Below, piece after piece: positions 13,661 through 22,013 of a stretch of 55,318 bases of DNA (the stretch's first letter is position 1; each line of letters opens with the position of its first letter). The DNA is from Actinomycetota bacterium. Its GTDB lineage: Bacteria; Actinomycetota; Aquicultoria; Subteraquimicrobiales; Subteraquimicrobiaceae. Under the pieces are notes generated by a model. It worked only from the letters and a program-made list of their open reading frames with translations. It searched no databases and was not told the origin of the DNA. The position numbers and the translations under genes are program-made. Location of the stretch: the NCBI GenBank assembly GCA_030018275.1, contig JASEGB010000010.1:1-55318 (forward strand), read 5' to 3'.

Positions 13661-14380
13661 TTATGGTTTTCGGGTTGGAACCCTCCCACAGCTCATCTCA
13701 CCTTCGGGGCAGTAACCGAGGAATTTGTCGTCGCATTTAGGCACCATATAAGAGGCAACGGTCGGAGCAATCTTTGCCACTTCCTCCTTTATTGCCTCAA
13801 ATAACCGGCGAATCTCCCATTGAGCGCGCTCACAGAGTCTGACATTGCTCACATGAATCAATTCCCTGGCATTCATGGTCATCACGATCTTTGTCTCCGC
13901 GGCATTGGGGAGGATAAATCTTGCATCCTCCTGAGCTTGCTCTCGAGTGCGACCTTTTGCCCTAAGCCTTTCAACGTAGAACTCATAACTCTGGGCAAAT
14001 CTCTCCATATTCTCTATGAACTTGGCTCGAAGCTCATCATCTTTTGCTATTTCGGGGGGGATGATATAACCGAAATCCTTGGCGCTCACATATCTTTGTG
14101 ATTGCTGGCTGTACGATGCCAAACGATGACGAACCAGCTGGTGACTGCAGGCTCTGGAGATACCCTCTACCGCAAAGGTGAAGTTCACATGCTCTAATGG
14201 ACTATGGTGACCCCCCTCCAACAAACGGTGGAGAAGTTTCTCTTTGTCCTCCCTGGACATTTTCTCCCTAAGTTGAGGCACCCCCACGCGGGAATAGCAA
14301 AGCCTTCCTGCCAAAGCTATGGTCTCTTCGGGGTCCGGTGTGTATTTCAATAAAATAACGCGCAATTGCTCCTCGGGCAC
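13661..14380 (-). CDS. thyX: flavin-dependent thymidylate synthase
   Basis: A 239-residue FAD-dependent enzyme making dTMP from dUMP with methylene-THF, leaving THF rather than dihydrofolate. The ThyX signature RHRxxSxxxxSxRY is present at 84-97 (RHRLASYSQQSQRY). The dUMP-side residues in ECVNFTF-like and NAAETKIVMTMNARELIHV segments are also present. It lies inside the folate/methyl branch gene run, 35 bases after metF, so it draws on the same methylene-THF pool. THF release without oxidation suits a cell whose carbon fixation depends on reduced folate. Confidence 0.95.
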   Translation of the reverse strand: MPEEQLRVILLKYTPDPEETIALAGRLCYSRVGVPQLREKMSREDKEKLLHRLLEGGHHSPLEHVNFTFAVEGISRACSHQLVRHRLASYSQQSQRYVSAKDFGYIIPPEIAKDDELRAKFIENMERFAQSYEFYVERLRAKGRTREQAQEDARFILPNAAETKIVMTMNARELIHVSNVRLCERAQWEIRRLFEAIKEEVAKIAPTVASYMVPKCDDKFLGYCPEGEMSCGRVPTRKP

Positions 14381-15952: not shown

Positions 15953-17299
15953 TTAGGCGGCCCACTGCCTTAAAAAGACCGGAATATCAGCAGCCTCCCG
16001 CGGACCGACGATTATGTCCCAATCGGGAAGCTCATCCTCAAGCTCACCACTGATTTGAGCCACGCAACCCGGTATCACCAGTTTATGGTGCTCGACCTTA
16101 TCGGTAATGCCACTGCGTTTCACGAAGGGGGCAATCGTTTCCGGAACGAACTTTCCCGCCGCCCAGGATGTCATCACCGAAAGACCCTCCGTATCCAGAA
16201 CGAGGAGCCATGAGGGAATTTTGCTCGCTTCTATCTCCCCCGAAACTATGAAATAGGTTAAAGAAAAGTTGGAGGTGATGAGAACCGGTGAAGTCTCATT
16301 GGGATTGCCGATTGGATAAATTCCCTCCTCAACTCTCATGGGACGTTGAGGATCCGTGTAGATGTTTTGACGGAGCACGAAAAGGGGCAATACCTTCCAA
16401 GGCTCCAGGTTCCGCAGGAGAATGATTCCCCCATACTTCATGATATATATAGCAGCTATGGCTGCCTCCATGAGATCATCTTCAGCTTGAAAGCAGGGGA
16501 ATGTTATCACCGGATAACCCAATGGACGAAACTTTTGCTTAAGTGCAGCCCGGCGAATGAGCACTAAATCATGCAAAGTGGAACCGACATTTTCGGAACC
16601 CGGATCTAGTACGAGATGCTTGATGCCCAAGGCGAGTATCTTTTCCACAAGTGGGGATAAGGTCTCAAGACCCTTTGCAGAAACCACCAGGGGACAATCA
16701 TATTCTTTGGATAAATTGGCCATGGCTTCATAATTTTCACCATTCGCCGCATAAATCAAGGGCTTATCCTCAGCACATACCGAGAGCGCGACTTTCATGA
16801 TCTCGGGATTCTGGCTCATGAGGACCATGGGAATGTCCAGGGAATCCTTTACCCTTTTCACAACGGAGACGAACTTTGAAGCATCTCCGGAGGAAGCTTT
16901 AACCGCGATGATGTCGGATTTTAATATCTGTCCCACTCTCTCGAATTTGACCTCGCGAGTTTGGTTTATCTTCCCATCGATGACTTCTTGAGGATCGGTA
17001 TCTTCCACGATCACTCCGATGCCCGGTGGATGGAAGAAGGTTTTCTCGTGCCTGAACATCACCTGTTCTTCCCCGATCTTTAGGACATTTTCTCCCCTGC
17101 CCATGGTCACCAATCGAATTGGCGGGGCCGATGCTTCAGCGAGCTCCTCTTTTATCTCCTCAGAGAGATAGGGGCAAGCATCGAGCTCTGCCTGACCTGC
17201 TGCCAACTTCATGGCGAAGGGAAGGCAAGCTGGAAAGCCACACTCCCCACAATTCGTTTTGGGTAATTTCTTGTAGATATCCAGTCCAGTCAACGCCAC
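15953..17299 (-). CDS. acsC: corrinoid/iron-sulfur protein large (gamma) subunit
   Basis: A 448-residue subunit that carries the methyl group from AcsE to acetyl-CoA synthase on cobalt. The N-terminal [4Fe-4S] domain is visible (CGECGFPAC at 17-25 and a fourth Cys at about 42). A TIM barrel follows, and then a C-terminal corrinoid-binding domain. Length matches the family. It lies between acsB and metV, all in one direction. AcsD, its small partner, is unusually separated from it by acsA, acsB and the NuoEFG remnants. Confidence 0.95.
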   Translation of the reverse strand: MALTGLDIYKKLPKTNCGECGFPACLPFAMKLAAGQAELDACPYLSEEIKEELAEASAPPIRLVTMGRGENVLKIGEEQVMFRHEKTFFHPPGIGVIVEDTDPQEVIDGKINQTREVKFERVGQILKSDIIAVKASSGDASKFVSVVKRVKDSLDIPMVLMSQNPEIMKVALSVCAEDKPLIYAANGENYEAMANLSKEYDCPLVVSAKGLETLSPLVEKILALGIKHLVLDPGSENVGSTLHDLVLIRRAALKQKFRPLGYPVITFPCFQAEDDLMEAAIAAIYIMKYGGIILLRNLEPWKVLPLFVLRQNIYTDPQRPMRVEEGIYPIGNPNETSPVLITSNFSLTYFIVSGEIEASKIPSWLLVLDTEGLSVMTSWAAGKFVPETIAPFVKRSGITDKVEHHKLVIPGCVAQISGELEDELPDWDIIVGPREAADIPVFLRQWAA

Positions 17300-17371: not shown

Positions 17372-20050
17372 TTAGAACATGGGTGGCATTTCTAAAGCTG
17401 GATGTCCCACTTTCTGCATGAATTCAAGAACTTCTTCCTCCGTGGTTGCCACCGTCTCATCGACGATCTTATCCACAAAGTCCGGCTCACCAATTTCCTT
17501 TGCCCGCTTATCGAGCATATCTTTCAATTCCTCCTTGAGTTCCTTGGGCATCCAGACAATTCTTTTGAAACCTCCATCGGCTGAGATGAATTTGGGACTG
17601 GTCAGGAAGAACTTCCCCACACCGCTGAAGCCTGGTGTCTGCTGACCCCCACCAACCATGCCAGCCATGGTGGAAAAAGTCATTCCAGAAGGTGTCATCC
17701 CAGCAAACTCCCTATTGACGACCATAACCCCATTGGTGGTGGGAAGAACGGCCACGATGCACTGGAAACACCCACAGTTCTTGAGCAGTGGACCTCCATT
17801 AGCAAAGTAACAATGCGTCTCTCGGACTGTTAAATTGTAAACAAAATCATAATCTCCTTTATTTTGCACCTCTTTTATATCAGTGATGGTATCCAAATAA
17901 TAATCCACATTTCCTTGGACATTAACATTGCGCTTTTTGAGGGAAATAACTGGATCTCCTATCCTTAAACAATCTGCCCTCACCCAAGCTAGAACTCCAG
18001 CTCTACTGATAGCTACTCCATGATTACATGTGAGCGTAAGCTCCTTCCCAGATTTGGTTTTAAACCAAATCAGTCTATTTGGAGCGGGAAATTTTTGCAT
18101 CGCCACCAAATTCTTAGAAATGGCACGTCCATGATTAAGTGTTAAAACTCTGGATTTTGTATATTCCTCGCCTCCTCGATGTGCATTGACAAAATCGGCT
18201 ATTTTGACAGGTTTGTCATCGATGATTATTTCGGTATCTGCGACAAGACATGAGGTCATTGGGTCTTCCATCATGCTATACATGCTGACCTTTTCTATCT
18301 TGTTATGAGAGGCTTTGTAGACAAATTCATTTACCCCTTTGAACTGACCCTTAACTGGATCAATGACTTCTCCCTTGGAAACAGGCTGGTTGGGTCCGGT
18401 GGGGTTTATTTCAAAAGCTGCTTTTCCATCGAGCCAATTATAAGCCCCACAGAGCCCCAATCTTTGAGGCGAGATGATGCACACGTGATCCGGAGCAAAC
18501 GATTGACAGAGGGTGCACGAGAAATAGACATCGACGCCCTCATCGGTCATGCCCGCCACGCGCTCATCTCTCTCGTGATAGATGGCTCTGGCCATCGGGA
18601 GTAACTCCTTTACCCTCTCCTCATCGGTATATATGGTGACTTGGACCTTATCCACGATGGCTGGGAAATCCGCCAAAAGTTTGGCTCTAATGATGTCGCC
18701 CAAATGGTGGAGCTTAAAGCCTTTTTCCTTGGCATCCTTGGCAATTCTTATCCAGATGATATCGCGTGAACCCATATGCATGACGCCTTGAGCACCATTG
18801 ATGAAATGGTGAAGCTGCCGCTCTAAGATGGATTCGAAATCCTTTTGCATCTTGCTCCCAGCGACATGGATTAGAATACCAAGCGGAAGTAAGGACCCCT
18901 CGGAGATATCATCGATTTCCTTGCCGACGACTTCGATCTTGTTGTCCTCCACCTCATCCAGACTCTTCATCAAAAGCAGTTCAGAAGAAGGAGATTTGCC
19001 GCCCCCGAATTCCACAAAAAGATTCTCTTTCCTCACTCGTTCGCCCTCGAAGGCTGGTCCATAAGAAACAGGCACGGGTACTTCGGTCACGGTGATTTTC
19101 AGTCCCCGAACCTCAATGGCCTTGGGGACGATCTCATCGTGGGGGACACTTGAGACCACATGCTCATAGAGGCAAATGCCCGTGGGAAGTATCTGTGGGA
19201 TATCCGTATCGGCAATGGTGGGGAATCCGAAGTTGATTGCCCCTGCGACTTGGGCATATTTTTCGTCGTCCACTTCTCCCAAGGCTATAACGAAGGCGAA
19301 GATGCGATGCCTGTTGTAGAGCAAAATTCGTTTAAAATCTCCGGGTTTGATTCCACCAAAGGCCATGGCCGCCCTGGCCGCGAAGCCCAAGGAGAAGACG
19401 GTCGCCGTGATATCCTTACCGAAGGGGACGAGCCTGGTCTCCCAACCCATTTGAATTCCCTCTTCGGCGAGTTGCTCCGCCATGTTCTTCCCATTGGTAG
19501 TGGCTGACATGAAAACATATAAGTTCTTCTCTTGCAGCTCCCGTGCGATTTTCACAGCGATCTCATTGGTTGGAGCGGCTCCCACTATGGCTGCAAAACC
19601 GGGAGCCGTACCGTCCACGAATTCGATTCCCCCCTCCCGCATGATCACATCATCCGCCGCTCCCAGCCAGATATTCTCATCCGTGGGACTAGCCGTCATG
19701 GTATAAGGAACGTTCTCACTCACGTACTTTATGGCCTCGATGATTTCGTCAGCAAATAGGGTGGCCATTCCAGCATCCAGTGCGGGACCAAGATAAGGCA
19801 GCCACACACGCTTGTCGGGGACTGGGGGAAGAAGCGCTTTAGCCCTCTCCAACACAGGGAGCATATCGCCTAAGGTGCTCACCTTCATCCCGGTGATACT
19901 GTAAATTACGGGCAGGTAATAACCCGTGTTGGGGAAACTCACCGCCTTATCCGGTCCATAATTCTTGAGGGCTTTTTTGAGATTTTCCTCCGCCCTTTTG
20001 ACGATATTATGGGCACCTCTTATGGCAGCTGAAGCTATGATTTTAGACAC
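17372..20050 (-). CDS. acsB: acetyl-CoA synthase (CODH/ACS beta subunit) precursor containing an intein
   Basis: An 892-residue precursor. After removal of a 158-residue intein the mature enzyme would be 734 residues, close to the 729 of Moorella AcsB. It condenses CO, a methyl group and CoA at the A-cluster. The ligands are all present: Cys512, 515, 524 and 534 for the [4Fe-4S] and proximal site, and Cys-Gly-Cys for the distal nickel. This last motif is the C-extein start, precursor residues 759-761. The start is GTG with GAGGAGAA upstream, and it overlaps acsA by eight bases. Without splicing the enzyme could not form its active site, so splicing appears essential. Confidence 0.96.
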   Translation of the reverse strand: MSKIIASAAIRGAHNIVKRAEENLKKALKNYGPDKAVSFPNTGYYLPVIYSITGMKVSTLGDMLPVLERAKALLPPVPDKRVWLPYLGPALDAGMATLFADEIIEAIKYVSENVPYTMTASPTDENIWLGAADDVIMREGGIEFVDGTAPGFAAIVGAAPTNEIAVKIARELQEKNLYVFMSATTNGKNMAEQLAEEGIQMGWETRLVPFGKDITATVFSLGFAARAAMAFGGIKPGDFKRILLYNRHRIFAFVIALGEVDDEKYAQVAGAINFGFPTIADTDIPQILPTGICLYEHVVSSVPHDEIVPKAIEVRGLKITVTEVPVPVSYGPAFEGERVRKENLFVEFGGGKSPSSELLLMKSLDEVEDNKIEVVGKEIDDISEGSLLPLGILIHVAGSKMQKDFESILERQLHHFINGAQGVMHMGSRDIIWIRIAKDAKEKGFKLHHLGDIIRAKLLADFPAIVDKVQVTIYTDEERVKELLPMARAIYHERDERVAGMTDEGVDVYFSCTLCQSFAPDHVCIISPQRLGLCGAYNWLDGKAAFEINPTGPNQPVSKGEVIDPVKGQFKGVNEFVYKASHNKIEKVSMYSMMEDPMTSCLVADTEIIIDDKPVKIADFVNAHRGGEEYTKSRVLTLNHGRAISKNLVAMQKFPAPNRLIWFKTKSGKELTLTCNHGVAISRAGVLAWVRADCLRIGDPVISLKKRNVNVQGNVDYYLDTITDIKEVQNKGDYDFVYNLTVRETHCYFANGGPLLKNCGCFQCIVAVLPTTNGVMVVNREFAGMTPSGMTFSTMAGMVGGGQQTPGFSGVGKFFLTSPKFISADGGFKRIVWMPKELKEELKDMLDKRAKEIGEPDFVDKIVDETVATTEEEVLEFMQKVGHPALEMPPMF
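17777..18250 (-). mobile_element. mini-intein in acetyl-CoA synthase
   Basis: Precursor residues 601-758. The N-terminal splicing block CLVADTEI gives Cys1. Block B is LTLTCNHGVAI with the conserved His. Block G ends CYFANGGPLLKN, with terminal Asn and Cys as the first C-extein residue. Removal joins EDPMTS to CGCFQC. The penultimate residue is Lys instead of the usual His, a variation known in some active inteins. At 158 residues there is no room for a homing endonuclease. The stretch is visibly AT-richer than the flanking acsB sequence. Confidence 0.93.
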
Positions 20051-22013
20051 GAAGCATTCTCCTCATCTCCATGTCATAAAGCACCCTTTCTATCTTCTTG
20101 TCGATTCCCAGAGCTTTCCTATTTCGGTCAATGCGATCGATCAGTATCCTTGCCATCTCCATTGGATCGGATTCATAAACCCACATCGCCCCGGTGAGAT
20201 CCTCAAGTTCTCTAAATAAGAAATCGCATAGGGTCTCGCTTCCCAAGGTCGGGAAGGACACTCCAAATACGACCATCACTCCACTGGCAACGAAGTATTG
20301 ACCGATGGCGATGGCCTTTTCGCTCATCCAACCGGGAGCACAACCGGCGGCGGGTATCTGGTGCATATCGTCACCCAATCCACCTTCCCTTATTATCTCA
20401 GAAGCTGCAGTTAAGATACGGCTGTTATCCACACAAGAGCCACAGTGAACCACTGGGGGCATCCCCACCGCCTCGCAGACCTCTCGCAGTCCAGAGCCAG
20501 CGAGTTCAGCTGCCTCGGGAACCAACAATCCTTCCTTGGCACAACTGATGGCGGAGCAGCCGGTGGTTAGGACCAAAACATTGTTGGCGATTAGTTCCTT
20601 GACTAGCGTGGTGTGAACGAAATCCGACTTCACGCGGGGATTGTTGCACCCCACAACGCCGACAACTCCCCTTATCCTTCCGTTAATTATATTGTCGTTG
20701 AGGAGGCGATATGAGTAGCGGAATTTTCCTCCCAGGATATACTCTATCGTCTCGTGACTGAAACCTGCGATCAGCTCCATCTTTTCCTGTGGTATATCTA
20801 CATCTCCCCTTTTGGGATAATTGACGATGGCTCGTTTTATTATATCCTTGGCCACATCGATGGCATTATGGGCATGGAATTCGAGATGGATTGCACCTTG
20901 TATTTTCGCCTTTCGCGATGTGGTGACGATCTCCGTGTGATAACACTGAGCCACCGATGGTAGAGACTGCATAACGCATTGGACATCCACGACCATGACC
21001 TCAACGGCCCCAGTTGCGATGGCCAATTCCTGCTGCAGGAAATTACCAGCTATGGGTATCCCATGCCTCATCAAAAGCTCATTCGCGGTACAGCATATCC
21101 CAGCAATGTTTATCCCCCTTGCCCCAGCTTTCTTGGCTAAATCGAGTAACTCCTGGTCACGAGAGGCGATGACCATTGCCTCGGGTAATAATGGCTCGTG
21201 TCCGTGGACGATTATGTTGACTTCGTCCCTTTTAAGGACACCTAAATTAACCTTCGCCCTTAAAGGAACCGGTGTGCCAAACATGATATCCTGCAGTTCA
21301 GTGGCGATCATGGAACCACCCCAACCATCTGCCAAAGCAGTTCGACAACCATGCAGGATTATATTTCTATGATCTTGATCCACACCAATGCTCGTTCTGT
21401 GCATCATCTCCACAATTTCACGATCAATACCTCTGGGGACGATACCAAGGTTCCTCCATAACTTTTGTCTGGTTGTAGGGGCTCGCTTTATGAAGTGAAG
21501 CTCTCCATCTTGCTTGCCGAATTCTGCGAGCGCCTTCTCCCCTACTTCGATGGCAATTTGATTTTTATTCTTTCCATCCACATCCACTCCAAGAACACTC
21601 GCTATCATTTTCAGCTTCTCTTCATCTTTGATTTCATATGCCGGTGCCTCGCCTCTGGCTGCTGCCAAAAAGGTTAGGACAACCTCTCTAGCGTGATCAG
21701 AGTGGGCAGCTGCTCCAGCAGCGATCATGCGACCAAAATTTCTAGCCGCAATGACCTCAGGTGTAGCGCCACACACCCCAACCTCGGAACCGGCTTCCTT
21801 GTGGATGATTTGGCACGGACCCATGTTGCACACCCGGCAACAAGATCCCACACTTCCAAAGGAACATGGCCTTTTCTCCTTGGACCGCTGAAAGACGGTG
21901 GTTACACCCTCTCTAGCCGTCTTATCCAGCATCTTGATGCTCGCCACGCAGCTAGTTTCGGAACGAATGCTCGCAGGATTTGATGATTTACTTTTCTTCT
22001 TATATTCACTCAT
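20043..22013 (-). CDS. acsA: carbon monoxide dehydrogenase (CODH/ACS alpha-type catalytic subunit)
   Basis: A 656-residue Ni-Fe-S CO dehydrogenase that reduces CO2 to CO for AcsB. The D- and B-cluster cysteines are in PCSFGSVGSCCRVCNMGPC (about 50-68). C-cluster ligands are recognisable: His in MRHGIP, Cys in VDVQC, VGCNN, TTGCSAISC and VHCGSCVDNSR. Length fits bacterial AcsA/CooS. Eight bases overlap acsB downstream and eight bases overlap the small ferredoxin-like gene upstream, so the three are coupled. Confidence 0.95.
   Translation of the reverse strand: MSEYKKKSKSSNPASIRSETSCVASIKMLDKTAREGVTTVFQRSKEKRPCSFGSVGSCCRVCNMGPCQIIHKEAGSEVGVCGATPEVIAARNFGRMIAAGAAAHSDHAREVVLTFLAAARGEAPAYEIKDEEKLKMIASVLGVDVDGKNKNQIAIEVGEKALAEFGKQDGELHFIKRAPTTRQKLWRNLGIVPRGIDREIVEMMHRTSIGVDQDHRNIILHGCRTALADGWGGSMIATELQDIMFGTPVPLRAKVNLGVLKRDEVNIIVHGHEPLLPEAMVIASRDQELLDLAKKAGARGINIAGICCTANELLMRHGIPIAGNFLQQELAIATGAVEVMVVDVQCVMQSLPSVAQCYHTEIVTTSRKAKIQGAIHLEFHAHNAIDVAKDIIKRAIVNYPKRGDVDIPQEKMELIAGFSHETIEYILGGKFRYSYRLLNDNIINGRIRGVVGVVGCNNPRVKSDFVHTTLVKELIANNVLVLTTGCSAISCAKEGLLVPEAAELAGSGLREVCEAVGMPPVVHCGSCVDNSRILTAASEIIREGGLGDDMHQIPAAGCAPGWMSEKAIAIGQYFVASGVMVVFGVSFPTLGSETLCDFLFRELEDLTGAMWVYESDPMEMARILIDRIDRNRKALGIDKKIERVLYDMEMRRMLRV

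Follow-up and report, generated by a model that had tools for sequence, protein, structure and literature searches.

The best-described relatives of the element reported here are class 1 inteins of archaea and bacteria, such as Pho CDC21-1 (6rpq), Pho RadA (4e2t) and TvoVMA (4o1s). The insert in the acsB gene of an actinomycetotal genome (order Subteraquimicrobiales) shares with them the Hint fold (TM 0.84), Cys1, a TxxH motif, a terminal Asn, Cys at position +1 and insertion at a conserved functional motif, but it is ~20% identical to them in sequence, carries Asn at F:4 and Lys at G:6, and resides in a Ni-Fe-S enzyme of carbon fixation. Its full-length relatives resemble homing inteins with LAGLIDADG_3 (PF14528) and have a pair of LAGLIDADG motifs where inteins usually carry the endonuclease, whereas this copy has lost that domain.

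The Wood-Ljungdahl pathway centres on acetyl-CoA synthase. We are not aware of any intein reported from this enzyme, and none in AcsB/CdhC was found in the open-access literature. In the Moorella enzyme, Cys595 and Cys597 ligate both nickels of the A-cluster, the distal nickel being ligated also by backbone amides of the Cys-Gly-Cys (CGC) tripeptide, and Cys509 links the A-cluster nickel to the Fe4S4 cubane as the bridging ligand (PMC10299331). ACS-alpha15, a fragment made up of the last 136 residues of this enzyme, folds alone and binds Ni (3s2x; PMC8910529).

The insert in AcsB is an intein

The window (the whole stretch of 55,318 nucleotides that was analysed) encodes the acetyl-CoA synthase precursor AcsB at 17372-20050 on the minus strand, as a single uninterrupted ORF of 892 aa with a GTG start (734 aa once spliced; NF040764, 1082 bits; PF03598, PF18537 and PF19436). 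The surrounding Wood-Ljungdahl cluster is complete, comprising CODH, both CoFeSP subunits, methyltransferase, MTHFR, RACo and a CooC-like NTPase; the CO dehydrogenase catalytic subunit (AcsA/CooS; PF03063) lies at 20043-22013 and the corrinoid Fe-S protein large subunit (AcsC; PF03599 and PF04060) at 15953-17299, both on the minus strand. A ThyX-type thymidylate synthase gene (13661-14380) is also found within the cluster, flanked by MTHFR and the CooC-like NTPase. AcsB is the only copy of the catalytic (A-cluster) domain in the genome (G000; 1.49 Mb, 99% complete). Another gene, at G000:C8:79363-80071, is similar to AcsB over just the first ~290 residues (55% identity) and lacks the A-cluster domain; in G000 it is broken into two frames, and two congeners have it as well (G001:C60 and G002:C12).

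AcsB contains a 158-residue insert (residues 601-758; 17777-18250, minus strand) that begins with Cys and ends with Lys-Asn, and whose excision yields EDPMTS-CGCFQC with the frame kept on both flanks. A sequence-only reading had proposed a mini-intein here, and its coordinates proved correct to the base. The insert matched the intein N-terminus profile TIGR01445 (E 3.8e-10; 40.6 bits, cut-off 24.5) and the C-terminus profile TIGR01443 (17.7 bits, cut-off 15.6), and PF14890 with E 4.5e-8 at 33.5 bits, about two bits below the gathering score of 35.8. Among solved structures, the KlbA intein was the top sequence match (E 4e-7), with the RadA intein also among the closest. Modelled with AlphaFold2 from an alignment of family members only, the insert adopted the Hint fold with a pLDDT of 90.7, and Foldseek matched the model to solved inteins with E down to 2e-10 and TM 0.84 (68 PDB matches with E < 0.001). 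On these results, the insert is an intein and more than a chance motif match. The corresponding model of the whole precursor, from a thin alignment of 28 rows, reached a pLDDT of 77 and was weakest around the A-cluster loops; it is given no weight here.

Hint fold, Cys1, Cys+1, TxxH, C-terminal Asn, the existence of an empty allele and the lack of an endonuclease together identify a class 1 mini-intein. A class 3 intein is excluded by the presence of Cys1 and by Asn139, which is invariant, rather than Cys, at F:4.

As every source is a metagenome assembly, an assembly or binning artefact might be thought to have put a Hint sequence into acsB. However, the identical junction, with in-frame exteins on both sides, recurs in more than 10 genomes of independent origin, one of them a chromosome of 1.55 Mb assembled as a single contig (CP070837.1), which refutes this explanation and leaves it a negligible probability.

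The intein interrupts the A-cluster

The insert sits between MTS and the C(759)GC(761) tripeptide, and in a phmmer alignment with the Moorella enzyme (1oao_C) the splice junction falls at residue 595. Cys+1 (AcsB Cys759; 17774-17776, minus strand) is therefore the counterpart of Cys595, at once the predicted splicing nucleophile and an A-cluster ligand (PMC10299331). The second Cys of the tripeptide, Cys761 (17768-17770, minus strand), corresponds to Moorella Cys597, and Cys515 (18506-18508, minus strand) to the bridging ligand Cys509; all six A-cluster cysteines (512, 515, 524, 534, 759 and 761) are present and invariant. These results bear out the earlier proposals that removing residues 601-758 restores MTS-CGCFQC at the nickel-binding Cys-Gly-Cys and that the +1 nucleophile is itself a metal ligand. 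The assignment of the two cysteines to the distal nickel held as to their ligand role and needs refinement, because they also ligate the proximal nickel and the backbone amides of CGC ligate the distal one.

The position agrees with that of known inteins, since native inteins lie nearer to active-site residues than other Cys, Ser or Thr sites do (mean 8.3 vs. 21.1 angstrom; PMC3359363). Furthermore, the 134-aa C-extein (17372-17776, minus strand) matches ACS-alpha15 in sequence, so the intein lies at the edge of a piece that, in Moorella, folds separately and binds Ni (PMC8910529). From this anatomy, in which the halves of the A-cluster need rejoining, and from the single-copy state of the gene, we infer that the precursor would be inactive until splicing, as the sequence-only reading had also argued.

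Splicing residues

The first nucleophile, Cys1 (18248-18250), is conserved in all family members in which that end is present. Block B contains TCNH (18020-18031), a TxxH motif whose T74 and H77 are invariant. Blocks F and G, VYNLTVRETHCYFANGGPLLKN (17777-17842; TIGR01443), include N139 at F:4, His146, Lys157 and Asn158, of which N139 and N158 are invariant; His146 is kept in 11 of 12 members, with Tyr in the congener G002. All of these features are on the minus strand.

Two residues that are common in inteins, and do not define them, are replaced here: Asp at F:4 by Asn139 and the penultimate His by Lys157. The sequence-only reading had remarked on this Lys. Both are assisting positions that vary among inteins (PMC4031507). 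F:4 is Asn, never the usual Asp, in every family member, and the penultimate residue is Lys in ten of the twelve and Ala in the other two. Being the family norm, Lys157 appears to be no defect and gives no argument against function; conservation across the family suggests that the combination of Asn F:4 and penultimate Lys works.

Distribution and loss of the endonuclease

In a survey of the class, the intein was found in 5 of 36 genomes, all of one order (Subteraquimicrobiales). In most of the remaining AcsB-bearing genomes of the class the site is intact and empty, reading MTS/CGCF or MTC/CGCF wherever it is covered (the slash marks the junction); in sister families the empty MTS/CGCF site shows neither gap nor duplication. 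In the congeners G001 and G002 and the same-order genomes G003 and G004, acsB is interrupted at the identical codon by inteins of full length (about 526-529 aa), the G004 copy being cut by a contig end. Full-length members have two LAGLIDADG motifs and match PF14528 (E 7e-16). The window copy is shorter than its kin by ~370 aa, and where these have the ~370-aa endonuclease it has a short linker (RNVNVQGNV/DYYLD region; 17906-17923, minus strand).

We scanned 84,980 species genomes for the pattern Asn/CGCF[EQ] (Asn/Cys-Gly-Cys-Phe-[Glu/Gln]); the nucleotide form AAYTGYGGNTGYTTYSARKBNRT has too few fixed bases for such a scan, and a longer form was used. Eleven loci were recovered, ten of them real AcsB inteins, from Actinomycetota, Bipolaricaulota (2) and Omnitrophota (5), which puts the family in at least three phyla; the remaining locus (L048, Bacteroidetes) was a chance match in a 56-aa frame that is not AcsB. 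Surveys of 384 Omnitrophota genomes, 148 of which had a matching AcsB, and of 100 Bipolaricaulota genomes, 37 of which did, show that the AcsB intein is rare in both phyla. One Omnitrophota copy (L076) is a second mini-intein that has also lost its endonuclease; mini-inteins thus arose at least twice.

Twelve Omnitrophota AcsB frames of 795-1046 aa were checked as candidates for further inteins and rejected, as the readable sites were uninterrupted and the extra length was mostly N-terminal (the CGCF site was unreadable in L114 and L119). An Omnitrophota AcsB group, e.g., L109-L116, has frames of ~830-860 aa in which more than 100 additional residues precede the A-cluster region; these are not inteins. 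Viral contigs gave no match at the AcsB junction and one weak, unrelated intein-like match; no match was found in plasmids, and phages yielded a single match, to a Vibrio phage gene (29% identity).

A second insertion site at Cys509

Two Omnitrophota relatives carry inteins of 550-553 aa before the codon of the bridging ligand Cys509, the only two cases found. In L069 (JAFGCM010000059.1, 634-6054, minus strand; Omnitrophota MAG Zod_Metabat.1113), a 1807-aa AcsB has inteins before both Cys595 and Cys509, and in L107 (G278) only the Cys509 site is occupied, the 595 site being empty. The Cys509 inteins differ from the window intein in their site within acsB and in their length; nevertheless, they are full-length homologs of the Cys595 family (25-30% identity, E to 1e-56) and share with it Asn at F:4, the Lys-Asn end and a +1 residue that is an A-cluster ligand. 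These similarities are most simply read as the colonisation of two acsB sites by a single intein lineage.

Selection and allele exchange

Between the window and the congener G001, dS was 0.20-0.35 for the exteins and 1.3-1.7 for the intein, with an intein dN/dS of 0.15-0.19; within the genus, dN/dS was 0.15-0.26 for the splicing domain and 0.17 for the endonuclease. Judged by these ratios, both domains are under purifying selection. By synonymous divergence, the intein alleles of the window and G001 separated long before their host genes did, so alleles have been replaced or exchanged. For alignment and tree only, the two overlapping G001 frames were joined at the protein level. In G001 (Ca. 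Subteraquimicrobium carltonvillense), a one-base frame change at L034:8960-8975 breaks the full-length intein, with an 8-base overlap (ATGGATAA), into frames of 1020 and 243 aa; the sequence may contain an error, the allele may be dead, or the intein may be naturally split.

The congener G002 provides a further indication of exchange. Codons 1-57 of its intein (the first ~171 bp) differ from the window copy at no synonymous site and by one amino acid (one base), and the remainder is G001-like, with exteins at dS 0.3-0.6. The family members are MAGs, and unless the mosaic is an assembly chimera, the G002 allele is, on this pattern, a recombinant of the mini-intein and a full-length allele. In G003 and G004, the C-exteins are 95% identical and the inteins 61-65%. 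Intein trees grouped mostly by phylum, with modest support, which suggests that spread between phyla is old or rare; they do not indicate recent transfer between phyla, and their support is too poor to date such transfers.

About nine further inteins were noted in the 1.49 Mb of the window's genome (loci L038-L046), in NadE, NrdD (three, in one 1716-aa frame), PorB, a PcrA/UvrD helicase, dTDP-glucose dehydratase, topoisomerase I and the V-type ATPase A subunit. That in the pyruvate synthase subunit PorB is a homing intein (L040:1030-3081, G000:C20) at YDNQAYMN/TGIQRSS; with AcsB and PorB both interrupted, two carbon-fixation enzymes of this organism would depend on splicing.

A homing intein that lost its endonuclease

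Taken together, the insert is very probably a mini-intein that splices in cis and stems from a homing intein targeting the MTS/CGCF codons of acsB, the endonuclease of which has since been deleted. The codons for this nickel-binding motif would have been the recognition site, through which the LAGLIDADG endonuclease formerly copied the intein into empty acsB alleles; the same lineage would have reached the Cys509 codon. In the window lineage the endonuclease was lost, and the splicing domain would have been retained because the sole acsB copy is useless until the insert leaves. By class 1 chemistry, a thioester would form at Cys1, the N-extein would be passed to Cys+1 (Cys595), Asn158 would cyclise and an S-to-N shift would produce MTS-CGC, after which nickel insertion would become possible. 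The replacements at F:4 and the penultimate position and the PF14890 score just below gathering count as caveats to this account, in which splicing is predicted. An ordinary homing intein, newly placed and targeting the most constrained codons of acsB, is the best account of the data.

The same replacements could be taken to mean that the intein has decayed and only cleaves, with the N- and C-terminal pieces of AcsB reassembling non-covalently around the A-cluster; the autonomous folding and Ni binding of the Moorella C-extein counterpart (PMC8910529) would fit this. However, every nucleophile is intact and under purifying selection, the atypical residues recur in members with conserved endonucleases from several phyla, and a key enzyme encoded by a single gene copy is most simply preserved if its halves are rejoined. 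We consider cleavage without ligation very unlikely.

Could splicing act as a switch?

The sequence-only reading had also suggested a redox- or metal-dependent switch on carbon fixation, and this was not supported. Such a domesticated intein would sense redox, metal or temperature and release active acetyl-CoA synthase when A-cluster assembly or reducing conditions allow. Conditional splicing is known, by a disulfide in the MoaA intein and by metals (PMC10663303, PMC4031507). In this locus, Cys+1 (Cys759) and Cys761 are Ni ligands and the C-extein corresponds to a fragment that folds independently and binds Ni, which could let metal compete with splicing; moreover, the intein is kept in all five sampled members of the order. 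Nonetheless, no regulatory Cys or metal site is conserved with the intein: Cys75 and Cys94, which might pair as a disulfide close to the active site, are absent from all other family members, and Cys147 is Ser or Thr in 4 of 12. The MoaA intein likewise interrupts an oxygen-labile Fe-S enzyme, but there an N-extein Cys traps Cys1 (PMC10663303), whereas the window N-extein (MEDPMTS) has no such Cys just upstream. Four of the five order members still have the endonuclease, homing accounts for persistence, and the majority of relatives manage without the intein. The known inhibition of splicing by metal, together with a metal-ligating thiol at +1, makes a regulatory switch possible, but the comparative data do not favour one, and we regard domestication as unlikely.

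A related and similarly doubtful idea, to which we give marginally more credence, is that inteins at Cys595 and Cys509 make A-cluster assembly dependent on splicing and that metal loading competes with it, the +1 nucleophile being a nickel ligand and belonging to a fragment that folds on its own and binds Ni; nickel or redox would thus set the level of active acetyl-CoA synthase. If this were true, available nickel or redox state would set carbon fixation in this organism.

Implications

Within the scope of the open-access literature, an intein in AcsB is new, and the kind of element is already known. Where AcsB serves as a marker of acetogenesis, annotation pipelines should expect such inserts. 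With two sites in acsB, two independent mini-inteins and allele exchange within a genus, the family is a compact case in which to trace the natural history of intein homing among uncultured anaerobes. A mobile element aimed at nickel-ligand codons also provides a testable system in which metal-centre assembly and predicted splicing would draw on one and the same thiol.
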